From: Candidatus Kuenenia stuttgartensis
GTDB taxonomy: Bacteria > Planctomycetota > Planctomycetia > Isosphaerales > Isosphaeraceae
Assembly: GCA_945865635.1 (NCBI GenBank)
Contig: CAMBEP010000025.1
Coordinates: 1-64,000 of the forward strand
Reading direction: 5' to 3'
Length of the DNA stretch: 64,000 bases
Shown here: in pieces, positions 3,626 to 54,014 of the stretch
How the letters are laid out: every line of letters begins with the position of its first letter
Numbering within the stretch: the first letter of the stretch is position 1
Position numbers and translations under genes: made by a program
Notes under the pieces: model-generated
What the model saw: the letters and a program-made list of their open reading frames with translations, nothing else
Told to the model about the DNA's origin: nothing
Databases searched by the model: none

Positions 3626-3958
3626 TTAAGTTTGGTCAGCAGACTCAGCACCCTCAGCATTTTTACTGACCGAGAGAATGCCATTTTCCATAGCTTCTTT
3701 CTTGTCATACATTTCGCTGGTGCCAATCACTTCCCCATTAGCAGCCACAAGATTAAAATATGGTTGGCCGCTTTGCGAGGTCTTTCGATGGAATCGAGCC
3801 TCTTGACCTGCATTATTTTTTACCGATTCAATCCCATGAATCGCACTGGCTTTAGCCTCGTACATTTCACTCGTGAGAATGATTTCGCCATTGCCCGCCT
3901 TGAGATTGAAATAATACTTGGCGTTGGTAGACTTGCGAATCTCGAACTTTGCACTCAT
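3626..3958 (-). CDS. DUF1508 (YegP-type) protein with two repeats
   Basis: This 110-residue protein is two tandem copies of the roughly 50-residue DUF1508 module. The first copy starts KFEIRKSTNAKYYFNLKAGNGE and ends around GIESVKNNA. The second runs ARFHRKTSQSGQPYFNLVAANGE to GILSVSKNA. Each has the typical YYFNL/YFNL strand and a TSEMY turn. E. coli YegP has the same two-copy layout. The function of the family is unknown. The gene stands alone, convergent to the NlpC/P60 gene and divergent from the sialate-lyase cluster. Confidence 0.9.
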   Translation of the reverse strand: MSAKFEIRKSTNAKYYFNLKAGNGEIILTSEMYEAKASAIHGIESVKNNAGQEARFHRKTSQSGQPYFNLVAANGEVIGTSEMYDKKEAMENGILSVSKNAEGAESADQT

Positions 3959-4229: not shown

Positions 4230-5186
4230 ATGAATACTTCGACAAAACCAAATCCACACGCAGGATTCAGGCTTAATGGACTGATTGCCGCGACTCACAC
4301 CCCACTTCACAGCGATGGCTCGATTCATTTCGATCAAGTGGATCGACAAGCCAGAATTCTTCAATACCAGGGCGTGATGGGTGCTTTCATTGGCGGCTCG
4401 ACAGGAGAGGGTGTTTCGCTTACGATCTCAGAACGAAAGTTACTGACTGAAGCCTGGCAGATTGCGGCTCCAAATCACAACCTGAAACTTATCGTACACG
4501 TTGGCCATACCTGCTCGGCAGATGCCTCTGATCTTGCTGCCCATGCCGCAGATCATGGAGCCGATGCCGTCAGCACCATGTCGCCATTTTATTTCAAACC
4601 GACTCAAGTTAAACCGCTCATGGATTGGCTGATACCCGTAGCCAAAGCCTGCCAGAATCTACCATTTTATTTCTACGATATCCCAGTCATGACTGGTGTT
4701 CGACTGAATCTGATCGATTTTGTCAAATCCGCCTGCGAAGAGATTCCCAACTTCCAAGGCATTAAATACACAAGCGACGATCTCATTCAACTCCAGGAAC
4801 TTCTGAATTTTGATCAAGGTCGGCTTGACATACTCTATGGCACAGATGAAGCCTTACTGGCGGCTTTGGCGTTAGGAGTTCAAGGTGCAGTCGGCAGTTC
4901 TTATAATTTTTCGGCTCGATTGTATCTCAAGATTATCGAGGCATTCCAACATGGAAACCTGACGGAAGCACAGAATCTTCAGTTGCAGTCCGTTCAACTC
5001 ATTCGCAAGATCGCCAGTTTTGGCTATTTACCAGCAGCCAAGTCTGTGATGGGGTTACTTGGATGCGACTGCGGCCCAGCAAGGCCACCACTCATGAATC
5101 TGTCGTCCGAAGAGAAAGTAAAGCTCTTAGAGGAAGTCGATGCCCTCAATATTCTTGATCGAAACATCTCAAAAACGAGAGTTTGA
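4230..5186 (+). CDS. nanA: N-acetylneuraminate lyase, animal-type
   Basis: This 318-residue class I aldolase of the DHDPS/NAL family most likely splits N-acetylneuraminate into N-acetylmannosamine and pyruvate. Visible landmarks are GGSTGEGVSL (residues 55-64, carboxylate-binding GST), FYFYDIPVMTG with the catalytic tyrosine Y149, and FQGIKYTSDD with the Schiff-base lysine K179. The wording around K179, and later GTDEALLAAL and GAVGSSYNF, resembles the vertebrate N-acetylneuraminate lyase more than E. coli DapA. The next two genes, a Kelch mutarotase and an AGE epimerase, fit sialate breakdown. The ATG at 4230 follows a candidate promoter; a TTG at 4086 would add an unlikely 48-residue extension. 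KDG or DHDPS activity is a less likely alternative. Confidence 0.85.
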   Translation: MNTSTKPNPHAGFRLNGLIAATHTPLHSDGSIHFDQVDRQARILQYQGVMGAFIGGSTGEGVSLTISERKLLTEAWQIAAPNHNLKLIVHVGHTCSADASDLAAHAADHGADAVSTMSPFYFKPTQVKPLMDWLIPVAKACQNLPFYFYDIPVMTGVRLNLIDFVKSACEEIPNFQGIKYTSDDLIQLQELLNFDQGRLDILYGTDEALLAALALGVQGAVGSSYNFSARLYLKIIEAFQHGNLTEAQNLQLQSVQLIRKIASFGYLPAAKSVMGLLGCDCGPARPPLMNLSSEEKVKLLEEVDALNILDRNISKTRV

Positions 5187-5187
5187 T

Positions 5188-6372
5188 ATGATAAATGAAC
5201 CTCACAAGATTTCCGTAATGCATCAATATCGATTGATATCGCTCAGGATTTGTATATATTTCATGACTTTCTTTTTTTCTTTGACGCTTACTTGCAATGC
5301 ACAAATAACATCATTGCCCTCGATCGAATGGAGCCTCTTGCCTCCTATACCTGATCTTGAAGGCTTTGCAGGTATGTTTGCAGGAATAATTGATGGAAAG
5401 CTTATTGTTGCAGGCGGAGCAAATTTTCCTAACGGATATCCTTGGGAAGGCGGCCAAAAGAATTGGTCCAACAGGATTTTTATCCTAGACTCAAAAACCT
5501 CAAAGAATTGGAGAGAATCAAAGCTCAGACTACCCAAATCAATGGCGTATGGAGTCTCTTGCACTTTTAACAACCGTTTAATCTGTTCAGGTGGAGAAAC
5601 CGGCCCTAACAAAACTCTGGCCAGTTCTAAGCCATCTTGCATATCTGATGTATTTTCTATTGGATTCAAAGAAGGCCAGTTGCATTTATTAGAACTGCCT
5701 TCATTACCTCAGCCAATCAAAGATGCTTGTGGATTGAGAATTGAATCACGTTTAGTGATCTTTGGGGGCATCGAAAGCCCGTCTGCCAACAAAGCTTCAA
5801 AAGAGATGTGGATTCTCGATTTGGAAAATCCTGAGAAAAGCTGGATAAAAGGGCTCGCTATTCCTGGCTCAGGGCGAATCCAGTCAATTGCCGCGTCAAC
5901 GATGAAGGAACTGATTGTGTTCGGAGGAATCGAAATTGAAAAAGGTGCCGATAGTCTTTCTTTAAGAAAAATGCCTTATCTGAGTGAAGTTTGGAATTAT
6001 CAACCAGGCGAAGTTTTTGAGAATGGAAAATGGAGAAGAATTCATGATATGCCTATAGACCTTGCTGCTTCACCAGGCCCGGCATGGAATTTCAGCCCAT
6101 CACAAATCGCAATCGTTGGGGGCGTAAGTTCCGAAAGGCATCGTCTTGCTCAAAAAGGCCATCAAGGATGGGCTCATGACATCTACTTATATGACATGAT
6201 ACTCGACAAGTGGGATGTTCTAAAGAATACAATCCCTGGTGGGAACTCAAGAGTAACGGCTCCTGCACTGGTTTGGGGATCTGATTACGTCGTGATTTCT
6301 GGAGAGGTTTCGCCCGGGAAAAGAACTCCACAGGTGATCAGATTTTCAACTGAACAAGGATCTAAACATTGA
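5188..6372 (+). CDS. Exported Kelch-repeat (cyclically permuted) mutarotase
   Basis: The product starts with a signal peptide (hydrophobic ICIYFMTFFFSLTLTC, then NAQ), followed by a beta-propeller of Kelch repeats. GKLIVAGGANFPNG, NRLICSGGETG, SRLVIFGGIES, KELIVFGGIEI and SQIAIVGGVSS are the repeating blade motifs, and WEGGQKNWSNRIFILD is typical of the NanM-like family. NanM converts alpha- to beta-N-acetylneuraminate in the periplasm; a cyclically permuted subfamily occurs beside nan genes in other phyla. About 394 residues is normal. It starts right after the lyase stop, so the two are probably translated together. ATG 5218 is an alternative start. Sialic acid as the substrate is inferred from context. 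Confidence 0.8.
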   Translation: MINEPHKISVMHQYRLISLRICIYFMTFFFSLTLTCNAQITSLPSIEWSLLPPIPDLEGFAGMFAGIIDGKLIVAGGANFPNGYPWEGGQKNWSNRIFILDSKTSKNWRESKLRLPKSMAYGVSCTFNNRLICSGGETGPNKTLASSKPSCISDVFSIGFKEGQLHLLELPSLPQPIKDACGLRIESRLVIFGGIESPSANKASKEMWILDLENPEKSWIKGLAIPGSGRIQSIAASTMKELIVFGGIEIEKGADSLSLRKMPYLSEVWNYQPGEVFENGKWRRIHDMPIDLAASPGPAWNFSPSQIAIVGGVSSERHRLAQKGHQGWAHDIYLYDMILDKWDVLKNTIPGGNSRVTAPALVWGSDYVVISGEVSPGKRTPQVIRFSTEQGSKH

Positions 6373-6442
6373 TCACTACTACAACACTATCTCTTCTGAA
6401 TTCCTTGGCCTTTTGCAAATAAAACCGTAAAGGAACAAGTTC

Positions 6443-7639
6443 ATGTATCAAAAAGAACAGCTTGTAAGTCTGAAGACGTTTTATCACAAGACCTTACACA
6501 ATAATATTATTCCGTTCTGGCTGGAAAACGGATTAGATAAGGATCACGGCGGAATATTGACTTGCTTGGATCGTGATGGTTCGATTGTCGATGACGATAA
6601 AAGCGTTTGGTTCCAGGGCCGCGCGGGATGGATCTTTGCCACGCTTTACAACGAGGTCGAAAAGCGTGAGGAATGGCTAAAGACAGCCAAGAGTTGCGTC
6701 GATTTCATTGAGGATCATTGCATCGATAGTGATGGCCGTTTATATTTTCAAGTCACACGCGACGGTCAACCAATTCGTAAAAGACGTTATGTTTACAGCG
6801 AAGCTTTTGCCGCCATTGCACATGCCGCCATGTATCAGGCAAGTTTGCTTGAGAAACACAAGGTTCGGGCTTTGGAATTATTTAATATCTATATGGAATG
6901 GTCGTTTACACCAGGAAAGATGCCATCCAAGTTTTCCGATACCAGGCCAATGATCAGCTTGGCACCAAGAATGATTGCAATTGTAACAGCCCAGGAATTA
7001 AGGAAATGCCTAAACGACTTACGTTTTAACGCATTGATTGACAACATGATTGAGGATGTAAACCAAAAGTTTATGCATACAGAGCTAAAGGCTGTTTTGG
7101 AGAATGTATCTCCTGATGGTCGATTTGTGAATCATGCAGATGGCCGGATATTAAATCCAGGACATAGCATGGAATGCGCCTGGTTTATTTTGGAAGAATC
7201 AAGGCTTCGTGGAGGCATTCCTGAATACACCCGCATGGGGCAGACGATTCTCGACTGGATGTGGAAATGGGGATGGGATGATACACATGGAGGGATTCTG
7301 TATTTCAGAGACGTACTAAATAAGCCAATACAAGAATACTGGCACGACATGAAGTTCTGGTGGCCACATAACGAAGCAATCATTGCAACATTATTAGCCT
7401 TTGAACTGACTGGCGAACCACGATATGCCGAATGGCATAAATCTGTACACGACTGGTCATTCCAGCATTTTAACGACCCGCAATATGGCGAATGGTACGG
7501 CTATTTACACCGTGACGGCGCAATCAGTCAACCATCAAAAGGAACTCTCTGGAAAGGCCCATTTCACCTGCCACGCATGCTTTTGATATGCTGCCAGATT
7601 CTGGACCGAATGACTTGTCGGAATTCCGATGATCACTGA
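6443..7639 (+). CDS. AGE-family N-acylglucosamine 2-epimerase
   Basis: This 398-residue cytoplasmic (alpha/alpha)6-barrel enzyme most likely interconverts N-acetylmannosamine and N-acetylglucosamine, the step after sialate lyase. Supporting segments are FWLENGLDKDHGGILTCLDRDG near the N-terminus, KSVWFQGRAGWIFATLY, NPGHSMECAWFILEE with the catalytic-region histidine, and MKFWWPHNEAIIATLLAF near the C-terminus. All are typical of renin-binding-protein/AGE epimerases. A clear AAAGGAAC ribosome-binding site precedes the ATG. It is third in the lyase-mutarotase-epimerase row. Cellobiose 2-epimerases share the fold, so the substrate rests partly on context. Confidence 0.88.
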   Translation: MYQKEQLVSLKTFYHKTLHNNIIPFWLENGLDKDHGGILTCLDRDGSIVDDDKSVWFQGRAGWIFATLYNEVEKREEWLKTAKSCVDFIEDHCIDSDGRLYFQVTRDGQPIRKRRYVYSEAFAAIAHAAMYQASLLEKHKVRALELFNIYMEWSFTPGKMPSKFSDTRPMISLAPRMIAIVTAQELRKCLNDLRFNALIDNMIEDVNQKFMHTELKAVLENVSPDGRFVNHADGRILNPGHSMECAWFILEESRLRGGIPEYTRMGQTILDWMWKWGWDDTHGGILYFRDVLNKPIQEYWHDMKFWWPHNEAIIATLLAFELTGEPRYAEWHKSVHDWSFQHFNDPQYGEWYGYLHRDGAISQPSKGTLWKGPFHLPRMLLICCQILDRMTCRNSDDH

Positions 7640-7661: not shown

Positions 7662-8492
7662 TTATACCCTGAGTTTTGCATTTCGCATCAATTCGGCTGT
7701 TTTGAAATACGCCTCTGTGACCCATGATTCAATTTGATCCGGCTCAGGGGAATATTCCAGTTCGATGGACATGACAATGTCGTCCTGATTTAATCCGAGT
7801 TCCTCGATTTTTTTCAGATACGGCTTGAAGTCGACCACGCCACGACCGGGCGGCAAATCACCGTGAACTTTACCGTCGCAGTCGGATATATGAATGTGCC
7901 CGATCTGGCCTTTTAAGCAATTTAGCAATTCCGCGGATTGATTCGCCAGAACCATATGAGATATATCCAAGTTTGCCTTCACTTCCCTTAATGTGACATC
8001 ATCCAGAAACCGTTTCATTTTCGGTATATCATTCAAAAGTGATTCGCGGAAAGGTTCCATTTCCATGACGATTTCAAGACCCAGTTTTTGGGCATATTCA
8101 CCAAGATCTTGAAGCGATTCCACTCCAAATTGCCATTGATCCGTAGGCGGAATCACTTCTCTTTGCCAAACATATTCGCCCAGAACAAGCAAGAGATTTC
8201 GTCCACTGAAATCCGCTGTCATTTCTAGATATCGCTTACATCTTTCAAGATGAAATCGCCTGACACTTGGATTAAAGTCAATCAGACCAAGTGCAACACA
8301 TGCCACACTGATAATTGGCAGATCCAGGTCTTTGCATGTCCGTCTTATCAATTCTCGTTCTTCAATGGATATATCCAGCGGATCAGCAAAGATATCGACC
8401 GTGTCGAATCCAATTTCGCGTGTCTTTGTGAGTCCATAGACCGTATCGCGATTTGCCTGAGCCCAAGCTGAGTTAATGAGTCCAAGTTTCAT
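7662..8492 (-). CDS. Sugar phosphate isomerase/epimerase, TIM-barrel
   Basis: This 276-residue protein belongs to the xylose-isomerase-like TIM barrel family (AP_endonuc_2 fold), which includes tagatose/psicose epimerases and inosose dehydratases. Metal-ligand positions are recognisable: the glutamate in EIVMEMEPF, the D and H of ANLDISHMV, the histidine pair in GHIHISD, and a late glutamate in VMSIELEYSP. A strong GGAG ribosome-binding site sits seven bases before the ATG. It begins 10 bases after the stop of the Gfo/Idh/MocA gene on the same strand, so the two form a transcription unit. Such pairs commonly handle sugars or inositols. The substrate cannot be read from the sequence. Confidence 0.8.
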   Translation of the reverse strand: MKLGLINSAWAQANRDTVYGLTKTREIGFDTVDIFADPLDISIEERELIRRTCKDLDLPIISVACVALGLIDFNPSVRRFHLERCKRYLEMTADFSGRNLLLVLGEYVWQREVIPPTDQWQFGVESLQDLGEYAQKLGLEIVMEMEPFRESLLNDIPKMKRFLDDVTLREVKANLDISHMVLANQSAELLNCLKGQIGHIHISDCDGKVHGDLPPGRGVVDFKPYLKKIEELGLNQDDIVMSIELEYSPEPDQIESWVTEAYFKTAELMRNAKLRV

Positions 8493-8502
8493 TTCTATCT
8501 CC

Positions 8503-9645
8503 TCAATTTGAATTCTTTTTGAGCATTTCGTCCATTATTTCCTGCGGATCAATCACCCGATGCTCAGCAGCAGCCCTCATGACTGATTCGCACAATGCAA
8601 TTGTCTTCAGATTGTCGAACCCTGAAATATCAGGCTCCACGCCAGCTTCCAATGCGACCATCAGACCTGCCATTGTGCCTGAAAATGCGTCCGGAAACCA
8701 TGCAGACGACCATTTTGGTTCATTCCAAGCCATCTCATCGTGAACTGTGCTGAATTTCAAAGTCGATGGCACGATTTTAGGCCAGCCGGGCCAGCCTATT
8801 TCGCCCAAGGCCAGACCTTCGGTTCCTTCGATACGAAAGTCGATGGAAATGGCTGGGGCTGCCCCCTCTTTGACTGGACCTGACCAGACATCGTCCCAAG
8901 ATGATGCTCTCGCCCCATTTTCAAATTCAAGAATATATAGATTCAGGCCATCGGTGTGATTGAACTTTGTTCTAGGGTCAGGCCTCGTGCTCGCCAGTAC
9001 ACGCACAGGCTCACCAAACCAATATCGGAAACAATCCAGATGATGAATACTCATAATATAAGTGGCGAGACTGCGACCACCCTGTGCCCAAGGCATCCAG
9101 TGCGGCACGGCTCTCATGTTTATGGTTGCCAAGACCGGATCGCCTATCGTCTTCTGATTTATCAACTGCTTTGCGACCCGCACGGCTGGATCATATCGCA
9201 TGTTCTGATTCACCTGAAGCAGAATCCCGACATCAGCACAAAGTCCAACCAGTTCGCTAGCCTCCAGTGGATCCATGGCAAGCGGTTTTTGAGCAAGAAT
9301 GCCTCTTAAATGCCCATTGCAGGCTCGGTGTCGAAGCACTTGTCGAATCACTCCGGGTTGATCGGTCGGGGGAACCGCAATATCGAGGATTGCAACTTCA
9401 GGGTCATCAAGAAGTTGATCGATGGAGTCTGTAATCAGTGGGATATGATGAAGCGATGCCACCTCTACTGCTTTAGATCGTGTACGGGAAGTGATACCAA
9501 CCGTGCGAAAACCCGCTTCGCGATAAGCAGGCAAATGACAATCGCGTACAATAAATCCCGCCCCCACAACACCTATCCCCAAAGCATCGGAACGGTACGG
9601 CATGACAGGCAATCGGTAATTTGACCATTTTTGCATATCGTTCAT
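8503..9645 (-). CDS. Gfo/Idh/MocA-family NAD(P)-dependent oxidoreductase
   Basis: The N-terminal Rossmann domain starts with IGVVGAGFIVRDCHLPAY, the dinucleotide-binding motif. It continues with VGITSRTRSKAVEVA and the family EKP-like segment, here AQKPLAMDP, followed by a C-terminal alpha/beta domain. Members oxidise or reduce sugars, inositols or glycosides. In this protein the motif reads QKP rather than EKP; the lysine is kept and the preceding glutamate is lost. The start is uncertain: ATG 9645 was chosen, a GTG at 9687 and an ATG at 9603 also fit. It precedes the TIM-barrel isomerase by 10 bases, and both end convergent to the sialate genes. Confidence 0.82.
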   Translation of the reverse strand: MNDMQKWSNYRLPVMPYRSDALGIGVVGAGFIVRDCHLPAYREAGFRTVGITSRTRSKAVEVASLHHIPLITDSIDQLLDDPEVAILDIAVPPTDQPGVIRQVLRHRACNGHLRGILAQKPLAMDPLEASELVGLCADVGILLQVNQNMRYDPAVRVAKQLINQKTIGDPVLATINMRAVPHWMPWAQGGRSLATYIMSIHHLDCFRYWFGEPVRVLASTRPDPRTKFNHTDGLNLYILEFENGARASSWDDVWSGPVKEGAAPAISIDFRIEGTEGLALGEIGWPGWPKIVPSTLKFSTVHDEMAWNEPKWSSAWFPDAFSGTMAGLMVALEAGVEPDISGFDNLKTIALCESVMRAAAEHRVIDPQEIMDEMLKKNSN

Positions 9646-9763
9646 TTGACTGTACTTTTTGCCTGATAGATTTGAACACCAACCCACAATGTATGGATCT
9701 TGAGTTCCATGATCATAATCACAAGCTTGACTCAGAACAAGCAGTGACTGTTTTAATTTGAAG

Positions 9764-10639
9764 TCAGTCGCCTGATTGTTTGGAAAAGGTGCTGAAAAAG
9801 TCGGCTGTAATCCGACCTGACTTTACATATCGAATCAGTCGAAGGATTGCACAAAGAGGCGACACGGTTGACCAGAAGATCATAACTAAAAGCCATATCT
9901 TTATACCCAGTTGGAGACTGAACCACATGAGCAAGCAAATGATCAGTTCTGCCATTAAGACCATATGGGGCTCCTGCATTTTTAATAAAGGCCAGTTTAT
10001 TAATGCGATTAAGTTTGAGGAGTTCTTAAAGATCGGATTTGAGGGAGAAAAGGTTTGATCTTTGGATTGTGTCATATAATTAGTTTTCGCAGAATGCAGA
10101 TAGGCATTCATCGCTTTGTATTTCGAGTCATTTGAATGGCTGATCATGGTCCAGCCAAAAGCTGCACCCATTCCGGATAAAATCGCCAAGTCATTCCCAG
10201 TGATTTGATAAAGCCCCCAACCAAGTCCAAATGCGCGTAAAATAGCATGTGCTGTATGAACCCAGAAATCCAGAAATATTCCTTCAAGGCTCTGATTTTT
10301 GGTAATACGTGCCAGTTGACCATCAACATGATCGAGCCAAAATCCCAAGAATCCAAGACTCACTCCGATACTAAACCAGAAACGGGTGCCAATAGAAATG
10401 CAAATCGCTTCAGCAAACCATGACAAGGCAGCGAGAGTTGTTATTTGATGTGCAGAGAGTCCAATTCTAAGCGCCATCCATGTACCATAAACGGCTGATG
10501 GTCGTGCCCATTTGCAAGCCAAGAAGTTCCCGGCAGTGCGATATTCTGGTTTTTGACCATAATTACGAATATCATCAATGGAAATATTTTTACAGTCGAT
10601 TTCATTAATTATATGCGATAGCCCGTTGAAGTCACTCAT
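9764..10639 (-). CDS. CDP-alcohol phosphatidyltransferase-like membrane protein
   Basis: This 291-residue integral membrane protein carries most of the CDP-alcohol phosphotransferase signature: D103-x2-D106-G107-x2-A110-R111-x8-G120-x3-D124-x3-H128. The last position is normally an aspartate, thought to be the catalytic base, and here it is histidine. The rest of the protein has several hydrophobic segments. Canonical members move a phosphoalcohol from a CDP-alcohol to a lipid or sugar acceptor. It is the last gene of a four-gene minus-strand run and overlaps the GT-C gene by four bases. Its product is probably an envelope lipid or glycan modification. Whether it is active with histidine in place of aspartate is open. 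Confidence 0.75.
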   Translation of the reverse strand: MSDFNGLSHIINEIDCKNISIDDIRNYGQKPEYRTAGNFLACKWARPSAVYGTWMALRIGLSAHQITTLAALSWFAEAICISIGTRFWFSIGVSLGFLGFWLDHVDGQLARITKNQSLEGIFLDFWVHTAHAILRAFGLGWGLYQITGNDLAILSGMGAAFGWTMISHSNDSKYKAMNAYLHSAKTNYMTQSKDQTFSPSNPIFKNSSNLIALINWPLLKMQEPHMVLMAELIICLLMWFSLQLGIKIWLLVMIFWSTVSPLCAILRLIRYVKSGRITADFFSTFSKQSGD

Positions 10640-12597
10640 GGAAATGTCCGTAAAGTAAATGGCTGAACGAAAAGATCATGTGCTTCCTGGAGAATCGGGA
10701 TGTTTTTATTTTCGATGCATGTCTGCTTTGGAGCGAATTTCAAGTCAAATATTCGGTAACGCCTGTGATAGCCATCCGATTCATGCAATGTACAATCCAT
10801 TATTGGTTGATGAGATTCAGTCCATGGTTGCATATATAGGGAAAGATCAGTGTCAAATTCAACAGCATTTAGTGAATCAGGTTCCGCCATGACCAGGTGG
10901 CTGAATCCCTGATCAAGAAAATGCTGTATGATGAATTCCACAGAGGGTTGATTTTTCAGAAGTCCGGTTCGCCTTCGATGTGCTTTTTCCATTGTAAAAG
11001 GACGTGGCCAATAAAAACCACGATGGTCCTGGCCGATAAGTCTAGCGTCGAGCGGAAGATTTAAATCGACCCAGTGGGATAATTGAGCAGTCGGCTCGTT
11101 CTCAATCAACCATTGCGATGGTGATTTAAGGCCAGCGAGCATTAAAGCACCATGCCTGACCCTAGCAAGATTAAATGATGAGATCAAAAAGACAATAGCG
11201 AACAGCGGCAATAAAATCGCTTTATTCTTTGTTATTTTAGGAGAGGAAGAATTGAGTCTTTCAAGAATATCTACAAATACAACACATGCCGATGCAGACC
11301 AAGGCACCAGTGCAGCGATATAGAATCGTGGACTTTGTCGCTGAGTCAGGCACAAACTGATTTCCAGGCTACCGATTACCAGATAGAGATACCATAATGG
11401 ATGGTATCTACGCAGGAATCCAAGTGGAATCAATGCGAGAAACAAAGGACCAATCTGATGCGAGAAACTATCATAATGGCTAGGAATCAACGATAAACCG
11501 ACCGGTGCTGTCAGAATGTTCCATATATGGGCAAGGGTCGATTTTCTCGCATCCTCAAGCACTTCGTCAAGGCCATGGCCACCGAAAGCATGTCTAAAGT
11601 AAGGATGCACCGGATTACCTGTCAACAGAGCTGATCTAGCGTACCAGTAACCACCTACAATCAACAGAACCAGGACAAAGACACCGACTGGTTTGATGTT
11701 GCTTATACTCTTTCGGCTGAATCGGTACGTATTATTAAACGATAAAGCGAAGAGATACATTCCAATAACAGCCGACCAAACGATTCCCGGGAATTTTACA
11801 CCACAAGCCAGGCCACATAACAAGCCCGAAATGATAGAGCGGCGAATGATTGAAATATTTTGTTGATCAAGCACTACCAAAGCAGCAAAAGCGGAAGCGC
11901 AGAGAGATGCCAGAGGGACGTCGTTTAACGGTGAAATCATTCCGCAGTTTACAATCGGTGACGATAGAATGATCAAAGCTGCATAAATGGAATTTCGCTG
12001 ACCGACCAAGGGTTGTGCAAGCAGTGATGCAGAGAATGCAAGGGAGAGCCCAAACCAGAAGGAAATGGCACGGGTCGCGACTGGACCTCGAAGCTTTAGA
12101 ACAGCCGCTTGCAGAGATTCCACCAATAATGGGTATGCCGTTTCATGGAGATCAGGATCAAATTGTACTCGCCCACTAGCAGCAATACGTTTTGCCACTT
12201 CAAGGTGATAACAAAGGGCATCTCCGTCGGTAACGGGCGATTGAAGACCTAGCCAGGCGATTAGAATCAGGATGAGTAGTGCAACCAATGGAAATGATTT
12301 GATTTCTGTTTTCAAATTTACGAATGATTTTTTCAGAAAACTTTCTTGAATGTATTGCCGAAAATGGAATAACCCTATCGATGTCGAAAGCAAGACCAGT
12401 ACGATGCCTGTTTGCAAGCTCCCAAGAGACGCAGATACGCCAAGGATTAAGCCTGCCAAACCAAGCCCGATTGGAAGGACCAGACCAAACCATTCCATTG
12501 CAAATGGGGCTCGCAATACCAGTTTTTTCCAGACAAGGCCGCCGATCATTAGCCCCATCAGACCGATTGTAATTAAAGTGATGAAATCGCCGATCAT
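10636..12597 (-). CDS. GT-C-type membrane protein, probable glycosyltransferase
   Basis: The 653-residue product has a long chain of hydrophobic segments through about residue 490 and a soluble C-terminal part, a layout typical of GT-C glycosyltransferases that use polyprenyl-phosphate sugars. After the first helices it has LGLQSPVTDGDALCYHLEVAKR, an acidic luminal loop in the place where this fold keeps its catalytic aspartate. It shares four-base overlaps with both neighbours, the flippase upstream and the CDP-alcohol transferase downstream, so the three are translationally coupled. I recognise no closer family. A role in building a surface glycan is inferred from the operon. Confidence 0.6.
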   Translation of the reverse strand: MIGDFITLITIGLMGLMIGGLVWKKLVLRAPFAMEWFGLVLPIGLGLAGLILGVSASLGSLQTGIVLVLLSTSIGLFHFRQYIQESFLKKSFVNLKTEIKSFPLVALLILILIAWLGLQSPVTDGDALCYHLEVAKRIAASGRVQFDPDLHETAYPLLVESLQAAVLKLRGPVATRAISFWFGLSLAFSASLLAQPLVGQRNSIYAALIILSSPIVNCGMISPLNDVPLASLCASAFAALVVLDQQNISIIRRSIISGLLCGLACGVKFPGIVWSAVIGMYLFALSFNNTYRFSRKSISNIKPVGVFVLVLLIVGGYWYARSALLTGNPVHPYFRHAFGGHGLDEVLEDARKSTLAHIWNILTAPVGLSLIPSHYDSFSHQIGPLFLALIPLGFLRRYHPLWYLYLVIGSLEISLCLTQRQSPRFYIAALVPWSASACVVFVDILERLNSSSPKITKNKAILLPLFAIVFLISSFNLARVRHGALMLAGLKSPSQWLIENEPTAQLSHWVDLNLPLDARLIGQDHRGFYWPRPFTMEKAHRRRTGLLKNQPSVEFIIQHFLDQGFSHLVMAEPDSLNAVEFDTDLSLYMQPWTESHQPIMDCTLHESDGYHRRYRIFDLKFAPKQTCIENKNIPILQEAHDLFVQPFTLRTFP

Positions 12598-14141
12598 GGG
12601 TACATAGTCTCACTGGTATGATCATTCGATTTGATTTTACTCTTGCAAATCAAATATATTGGGATAAGGGCTGGAATTGAAGCGATCAGCAGGATCAGTA
12701 ACTGATGGCCTGAATCCAGCATCAGATTAGCTGCAAATAGCCCATTTCTCTGAATCGTTAAAGAAGCAAAAAGACAATAGACTATCGAAAGAATTGCAAG
12801 AGTCCAGGATCTGATTCTGGCTTTATCAAATGATGTACCGTACCAGGTCATAACGAATAGCAATACAGCTCCGGCAATTTGAAATTGGCTTGAGGTGTAG
12901 GCGATCTCTGCAAGAGAACCATTTAAGGCGACGATCTTTAGTATGATATATTGTGGGATCAGTACAATTCCTGCCAGAAACGACAATGCCCATGACCTGT
13001 CAAGTGCTGTCCAAGCCTGCCTAAGTGGCCAGGTGGCTGCCAATGCTATAGATCCAGGCAACATGGGCTCGAAGGCTGCCATTCCTGTCACCAGTTTTGG
13101 AAACAAGACCGGCAGGAGCTGATTTCCAACAAAAACAGCCCAGAGGCTTAGAAATGAGAGGATCGAAAGCATTATCAAGCTGGCTTTTTCTGCCTCGACC
13201 AAGATTGAATGAATTTTGATTCCATTACCAAGCAGTTTTTGATATTGTGGATAAACGACAAGCCCGACTCGGCCTGCGATATCGCTGCACCAGTTTGTAG
13301 CTAGAATAGCAATGGAATAATATCCGGCCTGAGTCGTTCCATCAGGCATTTGACTTAGAATCAAAGCCCTGTCTATGGTGTTGAGCATGGCCCAGGCTGT
13401 ATTGGCTGCCAGAATTGGCAGACCTGTCTTTACGAGTAAAAATAGTATCGACCAATCCCAGGACATTTGAAAGCTTCGATTCGGATCGATTTTTTGAAGC
13501 ATGATTGACTGCACAACAAATCCGCACATCAAAGCAGAGATGAGTCCCCAGAATCCGGCAATGTATATTCCAAAGAGTGTTCCAAAAGCGAAGAAAAGAC
13601 TTTGAAAGATTGCCAGTCGCCCTACGATTCCAAATTGCGATTCGCTTCTTAGGATTGCAATATGAAAATCCTGATACCGTTTGAAAATCGCCAGAATTCC
13701 AACTAATAGCAGTCCAGTACCCCATTTTAATTCGTTATTGATGAAAAGCCTGCCACCCCAAAGAATCAGAACCATACCATAAATTGTCGATGTCAAGGTG
13801 TTGGATGTAGCGGCTACATTTGTGATGTATCGGGCATGATCGGACTGCCCTTTTGCTTGAAGCAAGGTGATTTTCTGGATTGCGCCCAAGGCCACTCCTA
13901 GGCTTGAGCGATTCGTATTATCAAGGAGCAGCCGTAAACCACTGTAAACGCCTAAGTCCGAGGGTGATAAACCCCATCGCAAGGCGAACGTCACAAGGAG
14001 CCCGACAAATCGCTCAATTTGACCAACCGCAGTCATCCAGAGGCTGTCTTTCAGGAGTTGACTTTCCTGAGTTTGAGGCTGTTGTCGCTTCGAATTCACA
14101 CTGACTGCAGCGAAAGGACTCATCGCAGATCGACCAAACAA
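12594..14141 (-). CDS. Polysaccharide flippase-like membrane protein (MOP superfamily)
   Basis: This 515-residue protein has about twelve to fourteen hydrophobic segments and resembles Wzx/MurJ-type flippases. The first helix region (WMTAVGQIERFVGLLVTFAL) is followed by LSPSDLGVYSGLRLLLD, typical of O-antigen flippases, and the later helices alternate with short charged loops. Such proteins turn lipid-linked glycans across the inner membrane. It overlaps the methyltransferase gene before it and has a four-base overlap with the GT-C gene after it. An ATG at 14123 is an alternative start that would reduce the upstream overlap. The substrate is unknown. Confidence 0.72.
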   Translation of the reverse strand: MFGRSAMSPFAAVSVNSKRQQPQTQESQLLKDSLWMTAVGQIERFVGLLVTFALRWGLSPSDLGVYSGLRLLLDNTNRSSLGVALGAIQKITLLQAKGQSDHARYITNVAATSNTLTSTIYGMVLILWGGRLFINNELKWGTGLLLVGILAIFKRYQDFHIAILRSESQFGIVGRLAIFQSLFFAFGTLFGIYIAGFWGLISALMCGFVVQSIMLQKIDPNRSFQMSWDWSILFLLVKTGLPILAANTAWAMLNTIDRALILSQMPDGTTQAGYYSIAILATNWCSDIAGRVGLVVYPQYQKLLGNGIKIHSILVEAEKASLIMLSILSFLSLWAVFVGNQLLPVLFPKLVTGMAAFEPMLPGSIALAATWPLRQAWTALDRSWALSFLAGIVLIPQYIILKIVALNGSLAEIAYTSSQFQIAGAVLLFVMTWYGTSFDKARIRSWTLAILSIVYCLFASLTIQRNGLFAANLMLDSGHQLLILLIASIPALIPIYLICKSKIKSNDHTSETMYP

Positions 14142-14890
14142 AACTGCGATCGTTCTGATTCACCTGCTGGATCATCGCTCTCGGCAAAGACTTCCACAGG
14201 AATTTTTGAAGAGTCCACGCGGTTCAGCCCACGAGCTTGGTACCATGCAGCAGTATCGTAGCCAAATCGATTGTAAGTCGTATCTGTATCTTCGTTGTGC
14301 ACACACCAGCAGCGGGCAACCCGAAGCACCTCTTGTCGAATTTTATCAGCAATTTCAGGCGGGTTGTGGAGAATTACAGCAGAGGTCAGAACGAGGTCAA
14401 AGGAATGGTCTGCGAAGGGAAGCCGATCGCCTGAACCATGAATCAAAAACACGTTATCATCGCTCCTAAGATGAGCTTGAGCAAGTGATAATTGCGATAA
14501 GCTGAAGTCAATTCCGGTGATTTGTACAACATCCCCAACGATTCGCCTGATATTGGCAATCTGCTTCCCGTAACCGCACCCGACTTCAAGGATGGACATT
14601 GGTTTACAGTCTGCAATGCGATGAGCCAGCCAATTGGACCGAGCCGTTCTCGCCTTCTGACCTTCCTGTTCTGCAAGATATTCAGGGCCGCCCCGCAGGG
14701 TCCAATAATGTCTTGGATCGGCATAGAGAACCCGACGTTTCAACGATGGCCATCGTTCCAGCGCCCGGCGCATGGATTTGTGCCACAAATATCCAGCACC
14801 ACGATACTTATAAGCCAGAACGACTTTTTGAATGCGGCATTGGCGACCACTTGAAACTTCCAGGTTCAGGCCTTTGTCTTGATGGGACAT
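14120..14890 (-). CDS. Class I SAM-dependent methyltransferase
   Basis: The 256-residue cytoplasmic protein has the methyltransferase core. SILEVGCGYGKQI (motif I, SAM binding) lies near residue 100, ITGIDFSLSQLSLA is motif II, IHGSGDRLPFADHSFDLVLTS is the following loop and motif IV. It is the first gene of the envelope operon, so it may methylate a glycan, lipid or intermediate. A GGAGG ribosome-binding site lies nine bases before the ATG. The N-terminal hundred residues contain SLKRRVLYADPRHYW and look like a helical lid. The acceptor cannot be predicted. Confidence 0.82.
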   Translation of the reverse strand: MSHQDKGLNLEVSSGRQCRIQKVVLAYKYRGAGYLWHKSMRRALERWPSLKRRVLYADPRHYWTLRGGPEYLAEQEGQKARTARSNWLAHRIADCKPMSILEVGCGYGKQIANIRRIVGDVVQITGIDFSLSQLSLAQAHLRSDDNVFLIHGSGDRLPFADHSFDLVLTSAVILHNPPEIADKIRQEVLRVARCWCVHNEDTDTTYNRFGYDTAAWYQARGLNRVDSSKIPVEVFAESDDPAGESERSQFCLVDLR

Positions 14891-15336
14891 GCTCCATTGC
14901 CTCCATGAGTTTGGATCGAGACGTACATCATAATGCGAATCAAGGTCGCATCATTCTTTCACCTGAATGGAAGACCTCATGGGCATGATTTCCGCAGAGG
15001 CAACAGAGATTGAAGATTGCATATTAAAACAATGATCGATTCGGTCAATATCGGATTCTTAAAAAACGCAAATCTAGCCCAACCTGCTTAAAAAGTCCCG
15101 GTTACGAGATTCAGGTTGCGAAAAAGAGATACATCGTGTTGATTCCAGACACTCGCCTTGTCTGTGATAACTCTCCAGCATATATTAGTTATTGTTGAGC
15201 AACTTCGATACGGGGAAAACGTAAGCGATAAGCTCCGTCTTTCTCCATCGGCAAAGTTTTGCATAACGATGCATAAGCCAGGGAGGGTAGGAATCCTGAT
15301 TCCTAGTCGATATTCCTATGGAAAACGGAAGTCACA
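14891..15336. other. Intergenic region between divergent transcription units
   Basis: The 446 bases separate the start of the minus-strand envelope operon from the plus-strand DUF2617 gene. Apart from the candidate promoter at 15158-15186 and a small AGGAAT/ATTCCT inverted repeat near 15290-15306, I see no conserved gene. Short open frames here lack family resemblance. Confidence 0.5.
15158..15186 (+). promoter_or_regulatory. Candidate sigma-70 promoter for DUF2617 and permease genes
   Basis: TTGTCT (15158-15163), a 17-base spacer and TATATT (15181-15186) match the vegetative consensus at four and five positions. It would leave a 5' untranslated region of about 145 bases before the DUF2617 ATG. 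Confidence 0.45.
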
Positions 15337-48696: not shown

Positions 48697-49056
48697 GACC
48701 GACAAACCAGCTTCAAAAACCGATTTTAAAAAAGAACGTAGCCCAGTGGTTACGTTCTTTCCATTTCTATTGAGGTCTCTCTGATCGACTTTGCCTGAGC
48801 CATTTTTCTTCTGAGAACTTCCCAGAATCGTTGTGACTTGGCCTCGGTTCGGGTATGTTGTACACGATCGTGAATTCTAATCGTTTGGGTGATGGACCTC
48901 CCGAATTTCTAAAATTGGAAACGGAAATCCGCCAGCTCGGTCTTTTGGCTATCAGTCATTGGCTCGGGCGGTTTGACCTTCAGGCTACTGGAGATCGGTA
49001 TCGTGAGTTTGTCATCTGCAATCGCATCGAAGGTTGACCATTCGTTCCTCACTCGG
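48697..49056. other. Intergenic region with hairpin before the MFS-SpeE gene
   Basis: The 360 bases hold the hairpin at 48731-48760 and no clear gene. The frame of the following MFS-SpeE gene is open back to 48973, but the conserved region starts after ATG 49057. Confidence 0.45.
48731..48760. terminator. Hairpin after the surface-protein gene
   Basis: AAAGAACGTA and TACGTTCTTT form a perfect ten-base stem with a ten-base loop, 34 bases after the surface-protein stop. The plus strand has only a weak T tract afterwards; the minus strand has a better one. It may act in both directions. Confidence 0.55.
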
Positions 49057-51726
49057 ATGAGCCATCGAGTTCTACCGTACAAACTCGCCTTTTTATGTAG
49101 CCTGAGCATCATGATTCTGGAGCTTGAGGCCAGCCGGCTGGTTGCCCGACATGTTGGCTCAAGCCTGGCTGTATGGACAAGTGTGATCGGAATCATGCTG
49201 GCTGGAATCTGCCTGGGCAATGCCTTGGGTGGCCGGCTGGCCGATAAAGCATCGCCAAGACGGCTGATTGGCCCCATGCTTGGCTTGGGTGCAGCCATGA
49301 CGATCATTTCCCTGCTTGTAAACGACTTCGCAGGCCCATCGATCAGCGCCATGGACAGCCTCGGGTTCAATGTTCGTGCCTTGATACTGATCTCGCTCGA
49401 CTTCCTGATACCCACCACCATGCTCGGTATGATAAGCCCAATTGTCGCCAAAATGGCGGTCGAGCAAGCCACCCGCAAGGGCTCCGCAATCGGTTTGATC
49501 TATTTTGTCGGTGCTGTAGGTTCGATTGTCGGGACATTTATTGCCGGCTACTATCTGATCTTCGTCGCCCCTACATCCACCATTGTTGCACTTGTCGCAG
49601 GAATGCTTGCACTCCTTTGTCTTTATGTTGCATGGGACACCAAACAATTACGCATTTTGGCACTTTTGACCGTCATCCTGATCGGGCTCGGAACAACCGC
49701 ATCGATTGCCCGACTGCTTGGCTCTGAGCGTGCCCTCCCTTTATTGCTCCGTGTTTTTGGCCCAATCGGCTCGGAAGTTGCCTTTTTTGGTGGAGTCGGG
49801 CTCTCTGTCCCAATGATCGGCGGCTACCTCAGTTGCCTCTTGCTTGGAATTGCAAGTGTAATCAACCTACGTTTCGTCCTCAAACAGGGGCTCGACGAAA
49901 CGACACCTCAATCGCTCTCTCTGAATCTCAATGAAGTGGCTCCTCCCCCTCCTGCAGAGCAAGTCATCCTGTGGGATCTCGCCTTGATGAGCTTCCTGGC
50001 AAGCCTTGCCTTTATGGCTTTTGAAATGGTTGCAGGCCGCCTGGTAAGCCGCCACCTCGGGTCGAGTATCTATGGCTGGACAACCGTCATCGGTGTCCTC
50101 TTGGGCGGGCTCAGTCTAGGCAACTTCTTCGGTGGCTGGCTCTCAAACTTCACCACCAAGAAATCCTTGCCAGCCTTCTTTTTCATGCTCTGCTCCATCA
50201 CAATTCTTGCCAGTCTTGTGCTTGAAAGCCCTGCCAATCTGCTCATGGAAAAAGTGGAATGGTTCCGAGACCACTCGCCATTCCTTTCGGACGCAATCGT
50301 CATGACCGGCTACCCTTGGTGGCAGCGCGTGCTTTATGTTGTGACCGTCTGTTTCCTGCCAGCTTCGATTGCACTTGGCACTCTCAGCCCGATGCTCGCC
50401 AAAATGGCGATCGATCGCTCTACAGCCGCAGGCCAGGTGGGCCGCTCCATCGGGGTTGTCTATTCCTGGGGTATGGTGGGATCCATACTTGGTACATTCC
50501 TGACCGGCTTTTTCCTGATCGACATCTTCGGCACAAAGGTCATGCTGCTCGTCATTTCCGCATCAATGGCCGCCTGTGGCGCTGTGTTGGGCGGAATTCT
50601 GCAGTCCGCATGGGCAGGCTTACCGCTGGGCCTCTGTGTGATCGCACTTGTCCCGACCGACTGGTTTCAGACTCAGGCCCTGAAACTCGGCCTTCGCGAA
50701 CCGGTGGGCCTGCCTACGGCTCAGGAAGAACCACTTGCATGGCTTGATGAAAGTCAGTACTACTACATCAAGGTGAATAATGAGCCTGAAGGCGACTCCC
50801 AAAAACGCACGATCGTTTTGGACAACCTGATCCACGGCTACTTTATTTTGGGTCATCCAGAACGTCTGGATTACGACTACGAACACATCTATGCCTTGGT
50901 GGCACAGCGGGTGGCCGAAGCGAAAACGGCTTCTGCTGGCAAAAAAGATGTGAAAGAAGCAGACCTTTCGACACTGTTTCTTGGCGGAGGTGCTTACACC
51001 TTCCCACGTTACATGCAATACAACTACCCCAGGACCCTTTGTGACGTTGCGGAAATCGATCCAGCCGTCTTGAAAGCCAACCACGCTGCGATGGGTTTGC
51101 CAAAAGAGACTCCAACCATTCAGACAACCATTGGCGATGCCCGTCAGTTTGTGCTCAAAAATCAGGGCGTAAAGAAATATGACCTGATTTTTGGAGATGC
51201 ATTCAACGACTTCTCAGTGCCCTGGCACCTGACCACTCGCGAGTTTAACGACAAGCTTGCGAATCTGATGTCAGAGAATGGCGTCTATATGATCAACATC
51301 ATCGATGTTTACGAATCTGATAAAACCGCTCGTGAAACCGCCAAACGCAATAATCTAAACGAGGAATCGGAGCTCAACAGAGCAAAGAAACTTGGCGGAT
51401 TCTTGTCAAGCTGGGTCAAAACGGCACGCCTAACATTCCCTCACATCTATGTTTACGGCACAGAATCGGAACCTGGCGAAGGCGAGCGGGAAACCTTCGT
51501 GGTGGTGGTCTCCAAGAATCCCATCGACCTGAAGGATCTTGGAAAGCGGCCAACCGATCCAAAATTCGAAAAGATGAACAGTGTTGGTCAGTTCCAGCCT
51601 GAGCCGTTCCCTGAACTGAACATGAATGAACTTAATGTCCGCGCCCGCGGAATCATTCTGACCGACGACTACGCACCAGTGGAAAACCTGCTTGCACCTG
51701 TTGCGGCCACACGCGGCGACGAATGA
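49057..51726 (+). CDS. Duplicated-MFS/spermidine-synthase fusion
   Basis: The roughly 889-residue protein has a membrane region of two similar halves: LELEASRLVARHVGSSLAVWTSVIGIMLAGICLGNALGG near residues 20-60 and AFEMVAGRLVSRHLGSSIYGWTTVIGVLLGGLSLGNFFGG near residues 330-370, each followed by further helices. The last 290 residues are a spermidine-synthase-like domain with LGGGAYTFPRYMQ, AEIDPAVLKANHAAMG and YDLIFGDAFNDFSVPWHLTT. Fusions of these two parts are known, but their reaction is not settled; no SAM decarboxylase is present nearby. It may transfer an aminopropyl or related group coupled to export. ATG 49057 was chosen over the upstream TTG. Confidence 0.82.
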   Translation: MSHRVLPYKLAFLCSLSIMILELEASRLVARHVGSSLAVWTSVIGIMLAGICLGNALGGRLADKASPRRLIGPMLGLGAAMTIISLLVNDFAGPSISAMDSLGFNVRALILISLDFLIPTTMLGMISPIVAKMAVEQATRKGSAIGLIYFVGAVGSIVGTFIAGYYLIFVAPTSTIVALVAGMLALLCLYVAWDTKQLRILALLTVILIGLGTTASIARLLGSERALPLLLRVFGPIGSEVAFFGGVGLSVPMIGGYLSCLLLGIASVINLRFVLKQGLDETTPQSLSLNLNEVAPPPPAEQVILWDLALMSFLASLAFMAFEMVAGRLVSRHLGSSIYGWTTVIGVLLGGLSLGNFFGGWLSNFTTKKSLPAFFFMLCSITILASLVLESPANLLMEKVEWFRDHSPFLSDAIVMTGYPWWQRVLYVVTVCFLPASIALGTLSPMLAKMAIDRSTAAGQVGRSIGVVYSWGMVGSILGTFLTGFFLIDIFGTKVMLLVISASMAACGAVLGGILQSAWAGLPLGLCVIALVPTDWFQTQALKLGLREPVGLPTAQEEPLAWLDESQYYYIKVNNEPEGDSQKRTIVLDNLIHGYFILGHPERLDYDYEHIYALVAQRVAEAKTASAGKKDVKEADLSTLFLGGGAYTFPRYMQYNYPRTLCDVAEIDPAVLKANHAAMGLPKETPTIQTTIGDARQFVLKNQGVKKYDLIFGDAFNDFSVPWHLTTREFNDKLANLMSENGVYMINIIDVYESDKTARETAKRNNLNEESELNRAKKLGGFLSSWVKTARLTFPHIYVYGTESEPGEGERETFVVVVSKNPIDLKDLGKRPTDPKFEKMNSVGQFQPEPFPELNMNELNVRARGIILTDDYAPVENLLAPVAATRGDE

Positions 51727-51777
51727 TGCAAGCCTGTTTTTTTGATCCATTCTTCCCAGACTTCAAGGCGGTGATCT

Positions 51778-52329
51778 GTGGCAAAGCGGCAATGGTTGCT
51801 GGTAATTCTGCTGATCACTGTCTGGTTTGGTGCGAGCAGGTACAACTCTCGGGTGAGCCAGATGTCAGGCTCTGGATTTTCGGCACCAAATCTGACTGAG
51901 CCTGCCCTGCCCCGAAAGATGGCAACCGGTTGGACACTTTTAGACTCTAACGGCAAGCTCTTTGACTGGTCTTCGACAAAAGATCGGCTAATCTTGGTGA
52001 ACATCTGGGCGACCTGGTGCCCACCCTGCCGAGCAGAACTCCCATCTCTCGCGAACCTTGCGAACGACAAATCGTTAAGCGATGAGGTCGTGGTGCTTTG
52101 TGTCTCAACGGACGACCGTCCAGAGGCTCTAAAGTCCTACCTGCAAAAGAACAACTTGACTTTCCCTGCGTATTTCGCACCTGAACTGCCTTTTGACTTT
52201 GTGACTGAGGGCATTCCTGCAACTTTCTTGATAAATTCGCAAGGAGAACTTCTTGGTTCTGAAGTTGGGGCTGCCCGCTGGGATGCACCCGAATTTATCC
52301 AACAGTTGAAAAATCGAAAATCCAAGTAA
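51778..52329 (+). CDS. TlpA-type membrane-anchored thioredoxin
   Basis: This 183-residue periplasmic thiol-disulfide protein has an N-terminal membrane anchor (QWLLVILLITVWFGA) and a thioredoxin fold. NIWATWCPPCRAELPSLA holds the redox motif C81-P-P-C84, and GIPATFLINSQGELLG holds the cis-Pro loop. Such proteins reduce or isomerise disulfides outside the cytoplasm, often for cytochrome maturation. The start is a GTG. It lies between the MFS-SpeE gene and a small membrane-protein gene. Confidence 0.9.
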   Translation: MAKRQWLLVILLITVWFGASRYNSRVSQMSGSGFSAPNLTEPALPRKMATGWTLLDSNGKLFDWSSTKDRLILVNIWATWCPPCRAELPSLANLANDKSLSDEVVVLCVSTDDRPEALKSYLQKNNLTFPAYFAPELPFDFVTEGIPATFLINSQGELLGSEVGAARWDAPEFIQQLKNRKSK

Positions 52330-52549
52330 GCTTATGACAAACCATTGAGTTTCATGCTATATTAAAGAGGCTTTGGAAACAAAAAGATAATCTCATCTTC
52401 GTCTTTCTACAAAGATGATCATTCCGGCCCCGATCAAGGGTTTTGTTGGAAAGGTGATTTTCGCTTGTTGATCCTGCTTGAACTCTTTAGCTGAGCTTCA
52501 TGCCTTCCAAACGCAAAACAAGAACTCTTTTCTCCGTGTCGAGTGCATC

Positions 52550-53071
52550 ATGGTTTTAAATTCAGTGATACTTCCTGGTGTTGATCCAGCAGAAGTGATT
52601 AATCGCAGCATGATTTTTTCTGTTGGCATGACGGTTTCGCCACTTGTCATTTTTAGCCTCTCTGAACTTATTTCCGGGCAATTCTCAGGTTTCAAATTCC
52701 TTCCGGTCACGACCATCGAGGTTGCGATGGCCGCACTTAGCCTATCCTTATTTGTTGGCTTCATTCCAGTCTGTCTCTGGATCCAGATCAAGGGCGTATC
52801 AGAGATCAATCAATATCTGATTCGAAACGGTCAAATTCTTGAACGCCAGCTATTGGGTGCACTGGCAAGAGTTTATCGTTCGTCTCAGAAGACCAAAATG
52901 ATCATGCTCGCAATTCCGACATCCATCGGTCTTTTTGATGCAGAACTCACCCGATCAAAAATCGGACTTATGATTTATCTCTTTGGCCAGTTTCTGATGA
53001 TCTATAATCTGCCATGGCCAAGTCGCTGTGAAATCTGGACCGAAGTAAAACGCCGAGAAATTCTGAGATGA
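52550..53071 (+). CDS. Small membrane protein of unknown family
   Basis: The 173-residue protein has hydrophobic segments at about residues 25-45 and 62-85 and one near 140-160, and ends in a basic tail (KRREILR). I recognise no family. ATG 52550 was preferred because the upstream extension to 52478 is not hydrophobic and uses different-looking codons. Neighbours are TlpA-like upstream and lspA after a 338-base gap, giving no clue to its job. Confidence 0.55.
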   Translation: MVLNSVILPGVDPAEVINRSMIFSVGMTVSPLVIFSLSELISGQFSGFKFLPVTTIEVAMAALSLSLFVGFIPVCLWIQIKGVSEINQYLIRNGQILERQLLGALARVYRSSQKTKMIMLAIPTSIGLFDAELTRSKIGLMIYLFGQFLMIYNLPWPSRCEIWTEVKRREILR

Positions 53072-53409
53072 TTGGTTTAGGGAAAATTGCCAAGTCATAT
53101 CTCAGCGAAATCAAACTATGGTCAATGAGTAGGTCAAATTATCATAACTCCTGATTTCAATCAGCCTTACAGGCCATTTAGGATCTTCTCGCTCGTGTGC
53201 TGAATTGTGACTTTAGTTCACTTCAATGAGATTACAAATCTTAAGCTATAAAATATTTATCTGTGACAGATATCTGTAAACTCACAAGATTCGCATAGTC
53301 ATTTTTTGTAACTTTCGCTACTTTAAACCCATGAAGAGACGTCAAGGGTCCATATCATCCAACCTCTGCGATGAACCTTTGAGGCATTTTCCGAAGACTC
53401 GGGGCAGGT
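53072..53409. other. Intergenic region before lspA
   Basis: The 338 bases are AT-rich and hold no convincing gene. A perfect six-base inverted repeat, TATCTG-TGA-CAGATA (near 53261), may be a protein site. Confidence 0.4.
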
Positions 53410-53958
53410 ATGAACAAAATACCCAAAAAACATCATATCCTATTCTGGTGTCTAGCGTTAGGTGGATCCATTTTTGACCTTTGGACCAAAGCGGCCATTT
53501 TCAAAAAAGTTGGTCCACCCGGATCCGATCCAATCTCGTTGGTGAATCACATTCTGGAACTCCGTACAAGCCATAACACAGGCGCATTATGGGGCATGGG
53601 GCATAATCTGCCATACTCCAGCCTGATCTTTGCCGGCTTAAGTGTTGTGGCCGCCATATTGATCATCTGGTGGCTGTTTCCTCAAGGTGCTGCCAAGGAT
53701 TTCTGGCTGACTGTCGCACTCGGGCTGATTATGGCGGGCGCCATGGGCAATTGTTATGATCGTCTCATGTTTGGCCATGTTCGAGACTTCATGCATTTCC
53801 ATATCGACCCGATTGGGTTCGATTGTGCCATCTTCAACTTCGCTGATAATATGCTGGTGGCAGGCGCAGTGATTTTGATGATCCTCGCCTTGAAGCCGCC
53901 CCTGGAAGATCCGTCTGTCGATTCACCAGTCAACCCGGCAGCACCTGTCTTAGATTAG
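53410..53958 (+). CDS. lspA: Lipoprotein signal peptidase (signal peptidase II)
   Basis: LspA removes signal peptides from prolipoproteins in the inner membrane. The 182-residue protein has four membrane helices, an early LWTKAAIF with the conserved Asp before it, LRTSHNTGALWGMG, GAMGNCYDRLMFGHVRDFMHF with a catalytic Asp, and FNFADNML with the other. The C-terminal twenty residues are a Pro/Asp-rich tail. It makes sense with the lipoprotein genes elsewhere in the window. No ileS is adjacent. Confidence 0.95.
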   Translation: MNKIPKKHHILFWCLALGGSIFDLWTKAAIFKKVGPPGSDPISLVNHILELRTSHNTGALWGMGHNLPYSSLIFAGLSVVAAILIIWWLFPQGAAKDFWLTVALGLIMAGAMGNCYDRLMFGHVRDFMHFHIDPIGFDCAIFNFADNMLVAGAVILMILALKPPLEDPSVDSPVNPAAPVLD

Positions 53959-54014
53959 CCAATCATCTCTGCTTCAAGATCTGACGGAACCGTTCAAGGA
54001 GGAACGTATCGCTC

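Follow-up and report, generated by a model that had tools for sequence, protein, structure and literature searches.

In Bacteroides fragilis, sialic acid is degraded by the nanLET pathway, which comprises the lyase NanL, the AGE-type enzyme NanE-II and the transporter NanT, followed by RokA, NagA and NagB. Passages in two papers describe how, after the lyase step, the AGE-family enzyme epimerises ManNAc directly to GlcNAc, with no ManNAc-6-P step (PMC10017367, PMC4747158). Escherichia coli carries the nanATEKQ and nanCMS genes, including NanK and the phospho-sugar epimerase NanE (L212 annotation), and its NanM mutarotase is unpermuted. The NanA proteins of Planctomycetes, Verrucomicrobia and Bacteroidetes were named as the clade closest to eukaryotes in a passage of a 2009 paper (PMC2693436).

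We compared these systems with a row of three genes in a 64,000-nt stretch of DNA (the window) from an Isosphaeraceae genome (G000; 5.37 Mb, 94.9% complete), using 45 genomes of the order as the comparison set. An earlier note on this DNA had described the row as adjacent plus-strand genes for a lyase, a Kelch protein and an AGE epimerase, and both the coordinates (4230–7639) and the families were confirmed (Table 1). It is highly likely that the row carries out the early part of sialic acid breakdown, using a non-phosphorylated route like that of nanLET. Like nanLET, it pairs a lyase with an AGE-family enzyme; unlike nanLET, it has a permuted NanM-type Kelch gene between the two, and the kinase and nag candidates of the genome are scattered. 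Nor are lyase, AGE and transporter clustered as in a nanLET-type locus, as the row is without a transporter and the MFS candidate lies on another contig (C3). With the nan-like clusters of Planctomycetota and Verrucomicrobiota the row shares its three families and their arrangement on one strand, whereas it has no MFS or sialidase gene and differs in gene order. With E. coli it would share the lyase chemistry and the mutarotase function.

Table 1. Positions of the genes discussed (in the window unless a contig is named)
Feature	Position	Strand	Remarks
DUF1508 protein, two matched stretches	3626–3958	-	directly upstream of the trio; found in G036 too
N-acetylneuraminate lyase (class I aldolase; Schiff base K179, Y149, GTDE 204–207)	4230–5186	+	ATG, 318 aa
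Cyclically permuted NanM-type Kelch mutarotase, probably exported	5188–6372 (start 5188, or 5218 from signal-like stretch)	+	
N-acylglucosamine 2-epimerase (AGE family)	6443–7639	+	
Sugar isomerase/epimerase-like TIM barrel	7662–8492	-	PF01261; convergent to the trio
Gfo/Idh/MocA oxidoreductase	8503–9687	-	PF01408; convergent to the trio
Candidate sialate MFS transporter	contig C3, 6813–8099 (6810–8099 in L083)		65% identical to MFS of the G008 cluster

The three genes are separated by gaps of 1 base (lyase–Kelch) and 70 bases (Kelch–AGE) and probably form an operon. The trio occurs in identical order in two of the three other genomes of the genus (L046 and L047; the AGE gene of L046 is interrupted by a contig end), and this repetition indicates that the arrangement is not due to chance. 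The third genus-mate (G035, 64% complete) gave no AGE or Kelch match. The GC content of the trio (42–47% per kilobase) resembles that of the downstream genes, with no sign of recent import. A scan of the window found 15 promoter-like sequences (7.5 expected) and six terminator-like ones (4.8 expected), and an Rfam scan of it gave no matches. The convergent pair downstream (7662–9687) adjoins the trio in G034 as well and in no other lyase locus examined; we did not count these two neighbours as part of the sialate pathway.

Identity and relatives of the lyase

The lyase matched PF00701 with 170 bits. Its best NCBIfam N-acetylneuraminate lyase model, PRK04147, scored 168.6 bits (cut-off 281) and another NCBIfam equivalog model 142.3 bits (cut-off 382); since these cut-offs were missed, we assigned the protein by tree and residues. 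The closest solved chains were 5afd (215.6 bits), 6h4e (202 bits) and 6arh (194.4 bits), the last of which we take to be human NPL; E. coli NanA variants reached 125 bits and a DapA chain 108 bits. Among the matches listed, identity to lyases outside the genus did not exceed about 53%. The best solved relative, 5afd, is the Aliivibrio salmonicida NAL (38.9% identity). Where E. coli NanA has T167, that enzyme carries Asn (group 4.4 according to passages of PMC6559660), whereas the window lyase has T181. K179, which the earlier note gave as the Schiff base, and Y149, which it also listed, indeed align to K165 and Y137 of E. coli NanA, and G204, D206, E207 and S223 align to G189, D191, E192 and S208. 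In the alignment, DapA and YagE have no equivalents of E207 and S223, while the active-site residues of three solved lyases mostly equal those of the window lyase. On the strength of these residues and of the trees below, the protein encoded at 4230–5186 is very probably a sialate lyase, predicted to cleave Neu5Ac.

We built two lyase trees, one of 110 rows and one of 35 hand-picked rows. Both separated the lyases from DapA and YagE at 99/97, so that the window lyase did not fall with DapA or KDG aldolases. In the 110-row tree, the window lyase and two genus-mates formed a clade (96/95) among planctomycete and verrucomicrobial lyases, in a wider branching that was not settled; NPL and NanA stood on long branches, and a divergent protein of the same genome (C69) fell inside the NALs on a very long branch. 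In the 35-row tree, the window-type lyases, NPL and the A. salmonicida lyase formed a set that excluded E. coli NanA (92/90, unstarred). 6arh stood apart from the window clade, in a subset (90/96) that also held two bacterial structures, 5afd and 6h4e, and three loci of bacteria. Forcing the window clade and NPL together cost 11.2 log units and was not rejected (p-AU 0.093, with a single NPL sequence).

These results bear on the animal-like character that the earlier note had seen in the lyase. Its reading of the GTDEALLAAL segment as vertebrate-like was borne out (7 of 10 positions identical to 6arh, 4 of 10 to E. coli NanA), but the 20 positions around K179 showed little preference (8 match 6arh, 7 match NanA). 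Similarly, the lyase scored higher against 6arh than against NanA, but higher still against bacterial 5afd, and the best tree set 6arh in another subset. Judged by sequence, the lyase is nearer to NPL than E. coli NanA is, and this is equally true of the whole bacterial clade. The impression of animal kinship is corrected accordingly, as it rests on similarity common to an entire bacterial clade. An animal-like origin was not supported by the trees, which put the lyase with planctomycete and verrucomicrobial lyases and not specially with NPL.

A second NAL-like gene was observed on contig C35 of the same genome (L062:9767–10693). Its product is 43% identical to the window lyase, and the gene is present in all four genus genomes. 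In the stretch read it had no nan partner, and the active-site Lys, Tyr and GxDE were kept in the copies aligned; besides the window type, Isosphaeraceae thus have an orphan type of putative NAL. We also noted a block at 48973–54980 of the window, with an MFS-like gene (917 aa), a redoxin gene, an lspA-like gene and two unmatched genes, which adjoins the orphan lyase in G035 and G036 and lies on a separate contig from it in the source genome.

The permuted Kelch protein and the AGE epimerase

The Kelch protein exceeded the gathering score of the Pfam NANM family (PF24996; 94 bits, threshold 45) and scored below the cut-off of the subfamily model TIGR03548 (122.2 bits, cut-off 243.2). Residues 46–149 match positions 228–336 of 2uvk (YjhT/NanM) and residues 171–253 match positions 3–76; since the two pieces occur in reversed order, we read the protein as a circularly swapped NanM. 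The motif GE-x-x-PG-x-R was unchanged in all 12 aligned Kelch proteins, and its E and R fall on 2uvk positions 209 (Glu) and 215 (Arg), presumably catalytic. A looser form, GE-x-x-x-G-x-R, was present in 19 of 22 Kelch proteins among the matches listed (duplicate records counted). The family score, the swapped match and the kept motif thus agree with the earlier description of the protein as a NanM-type mutarotase of the cyclically permuted kind. A structure model (pLDDT 83.7) matched Kelch propellers at Z about 30, with 2uvk_B at Foldseek rank 17 and 2uvk absent from the 50 VIA matches listed; as modelled, the propeller fold by itself does not single out NanM. By eye, the N-terminus reads as a signal peptide, and the protein is probably exported.

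The best solved match of the AGE protein was 8bry (493 bits), with 2gz6 at 292 bits. It passed the cut-off of PF07221 (156.9 bits) and stayed below the equivalog cut-off of NCBIfam NF052547 (365.6 bits, cut-off 600). H241 and H375 align to His239 and His372 of 2gz6, which we take to be the catalytic histidines.

Partner genes in relatives and elsewhere in the genome

A scan of genome contigs with the lyase alignment named at least 80 loci; a scan of the contigs with a single protein gave no confirmed relatives. The 80 named lyase loci listed and the loci of the order were searched with profiles of four partner families, AGE, Kelch, sialidase and MFS (threshold 200 bits; MFS 400 bits); several of the named loci are copies of loci of the order (e.g. 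L176 = L065). Among the 78 listed loci outside the genus, 42 had at least one partner (AGE 18, Kelch 16, MFS 18, sialidase 18) and seven had three or four partner families. The other 36 had none of the four, some of them on short contigs, which counts against the sialate reading. Within the order, a partner was found at 7 of 30 loci (L046–L075) and none at 23. Kelch relatives (E ≤ 1e-20) occurred in 4 of the 45 order genomes, each time with a lyase in the same stretch. AGE relatives, at the same threshold, occurred in five: three adjoin lyase and Kelch, one (G030, 56%) adjoins a sialidase-like gene, and a distant one (28%) had no partner in the stretch seen.

The G008 cluster runs in the order sialidase, lyase, MFS, Kelch, and its sialidase is GH33-like (146 bits against solved sialidases). 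Further examples from Planctomycetota and Verrucomicrobiota (L132, L165, L174, L180) are nan-like clusters of Kelch, MFS, lyase, sialidase and AGE genes. Among the matches listed, the permuted mutarotase is often found alongside the AGE route across these two phyla. Because in relatives these families share a cluster with an MFS transporter and a sialidase of GH33-like type, sialate, which the earlier note had proposed as the substrate, gains support, and with it we infer the route from lyase and AGE to GlcNAc that it had suggested, which is that of nanLET.

The trio row itself contains no sialidase, transporter or kinase gene, and this too was counted against the sialate reading, as were the NCBIfam cut-offs missed by all three proteins and by the NagA and NagB candidates and the failure to find a close GH33 relative in the genus. 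The earlier note had listed transporter, kinase, NagA/NagB and sialidase as missing; candidates for all but the sialidase were found elsewhere in the genome. The C3 MFS protein is probably, by sequence, a sialate importer. It is 77% and 84% identical to its counterparts in the two trio-bearing genus-mates (the 84% one being a partial gene), and the family was present in 13 of 26 genomes with a lyase match and in 3 of 19 without (Fisher p 0.027, kinship uncorrected). Its gene is convergent to a distant DHDPS-family gene (L083:5784–6779), a pair kept in G034 (L197, 67%). This neighbour and the three lyase-less genomes are the reasons why it may carry something else. The family is a candidate sialate transporter in Planctomycetota and Verrucomicrobiota. 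NagA-like and NagB-like genes, on C1 and C77, scored just below their cut-offs (210 bits, cut-off 225.65; 202 bits, cut-off 236.9), and two ROK kinases were nearest to the glucokinase model. No relative of the G008 sialidase was found at E ≤ 1e-40 in the four genus genomes. The genome has three strong BNR_2 proteins (C19, C65 and C120), at most putative sialidases; two of them weakly resemble solved sialidases (C65, 54 bits over part of its length; C19, 26 bits).

Proposed pathway and alternative readings

In the pathway we propose, the exported Kelch protein would act on free sialic acid outside the inner membrane, speeding the exchange between its anomers, and the C3 MFS protein would probably import the sugar. 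The lyase would then cleave it to pyruvate and ManNAc via the K179 Schiff base, the AGE epimerase would convert ManNAc to GlcNAc, and a ROK kinase and NagA/NagB-like enzymes encoded elsewhere could take GlcNAc to fructose 6-phosphate.

The row might instead degrade a sialic-acid-like sugar other than Neu5Ac, such as Neu5Gc, O-acetylated forms or a bacterial or algal nonulosonate. The failure to find a close GH33 sialidase in the genus would fit this, sequence does not reveal the specificity of the lyase, and the two trio-bearing genus-mates are MAG records. We nevertheless consider it improbable: the active site equals that of E. coli NanA and mostly that of three solved lyases, the clusters of relatives include a sialidase, and the AGE family acts on N-acyl hexosamines, so that the lyase product should be ManNAc-like. 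The lyase and AGE reactions are both reversible, and run backwards (GlcNAc to ManNAc to Neu5Ac) they could make sialic acid for a surface polysaccharide; by eye, membrane- or polysaccharide-like ORFs follow the convergent pair at 9764–15000. However, a NeuB search of the genome gave only partial, weak matches, hence no sign of sialate synthesis; two of these, to PF03102, look like DAHP synthases in our own reading. With a clear NeuB absent, and with the probably exported mutarotase and the relatives' sialidase and transporter suggesting uptake, we set synthesis aside as very improbable.

That the lyase belongs instead to the aldolases of KDG type or dihydrodipicolinate-synthase type, its neighbours being incidental, is scarcely credible. 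The fold superfamily is common to both and the NanA equivalog cut-offs were missed, but both trees and the residue mapping, in which E207 and S223 agree with sialate lyases, led us to reject this identity. Furthermore, contig C6 of the genome carries a strong DapA-like gene (PF00701 298 bits; E. coli DapA 246 bits), and the neighbours belong to nan families.

Sialic acid catabolism thus remains our preferred reading. We take the row to be a reduced form, confined in these data to one Isosphaeraceae genus, of the larger cluster in which Planctomycetota and Verrucomicrobiota combine Kelch, MFS, lyase, sialidase and AGE genes. A further suggestion, which we regard as speculative and rather unlikely, is that the genus took a nan cluster apart, keeping a lyase–mutarotase–AGE core to live on sialic acids that occur free, or in unusual forms, where it grows, relocating the transporter and holding a second, orphan NAL-like enzyme for another substrate. 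A literature search found nothing combining 'Isosphaeraceae' and 'sialic acid'. The row is an ordinary, already known kind of nan cluster and route, and well supported as such. Sialic acid is a sugar common on animal cells and the route is familiar from gut bacteria; one Isosphaeraceae genus is now added to the bacteria predicted to use it.
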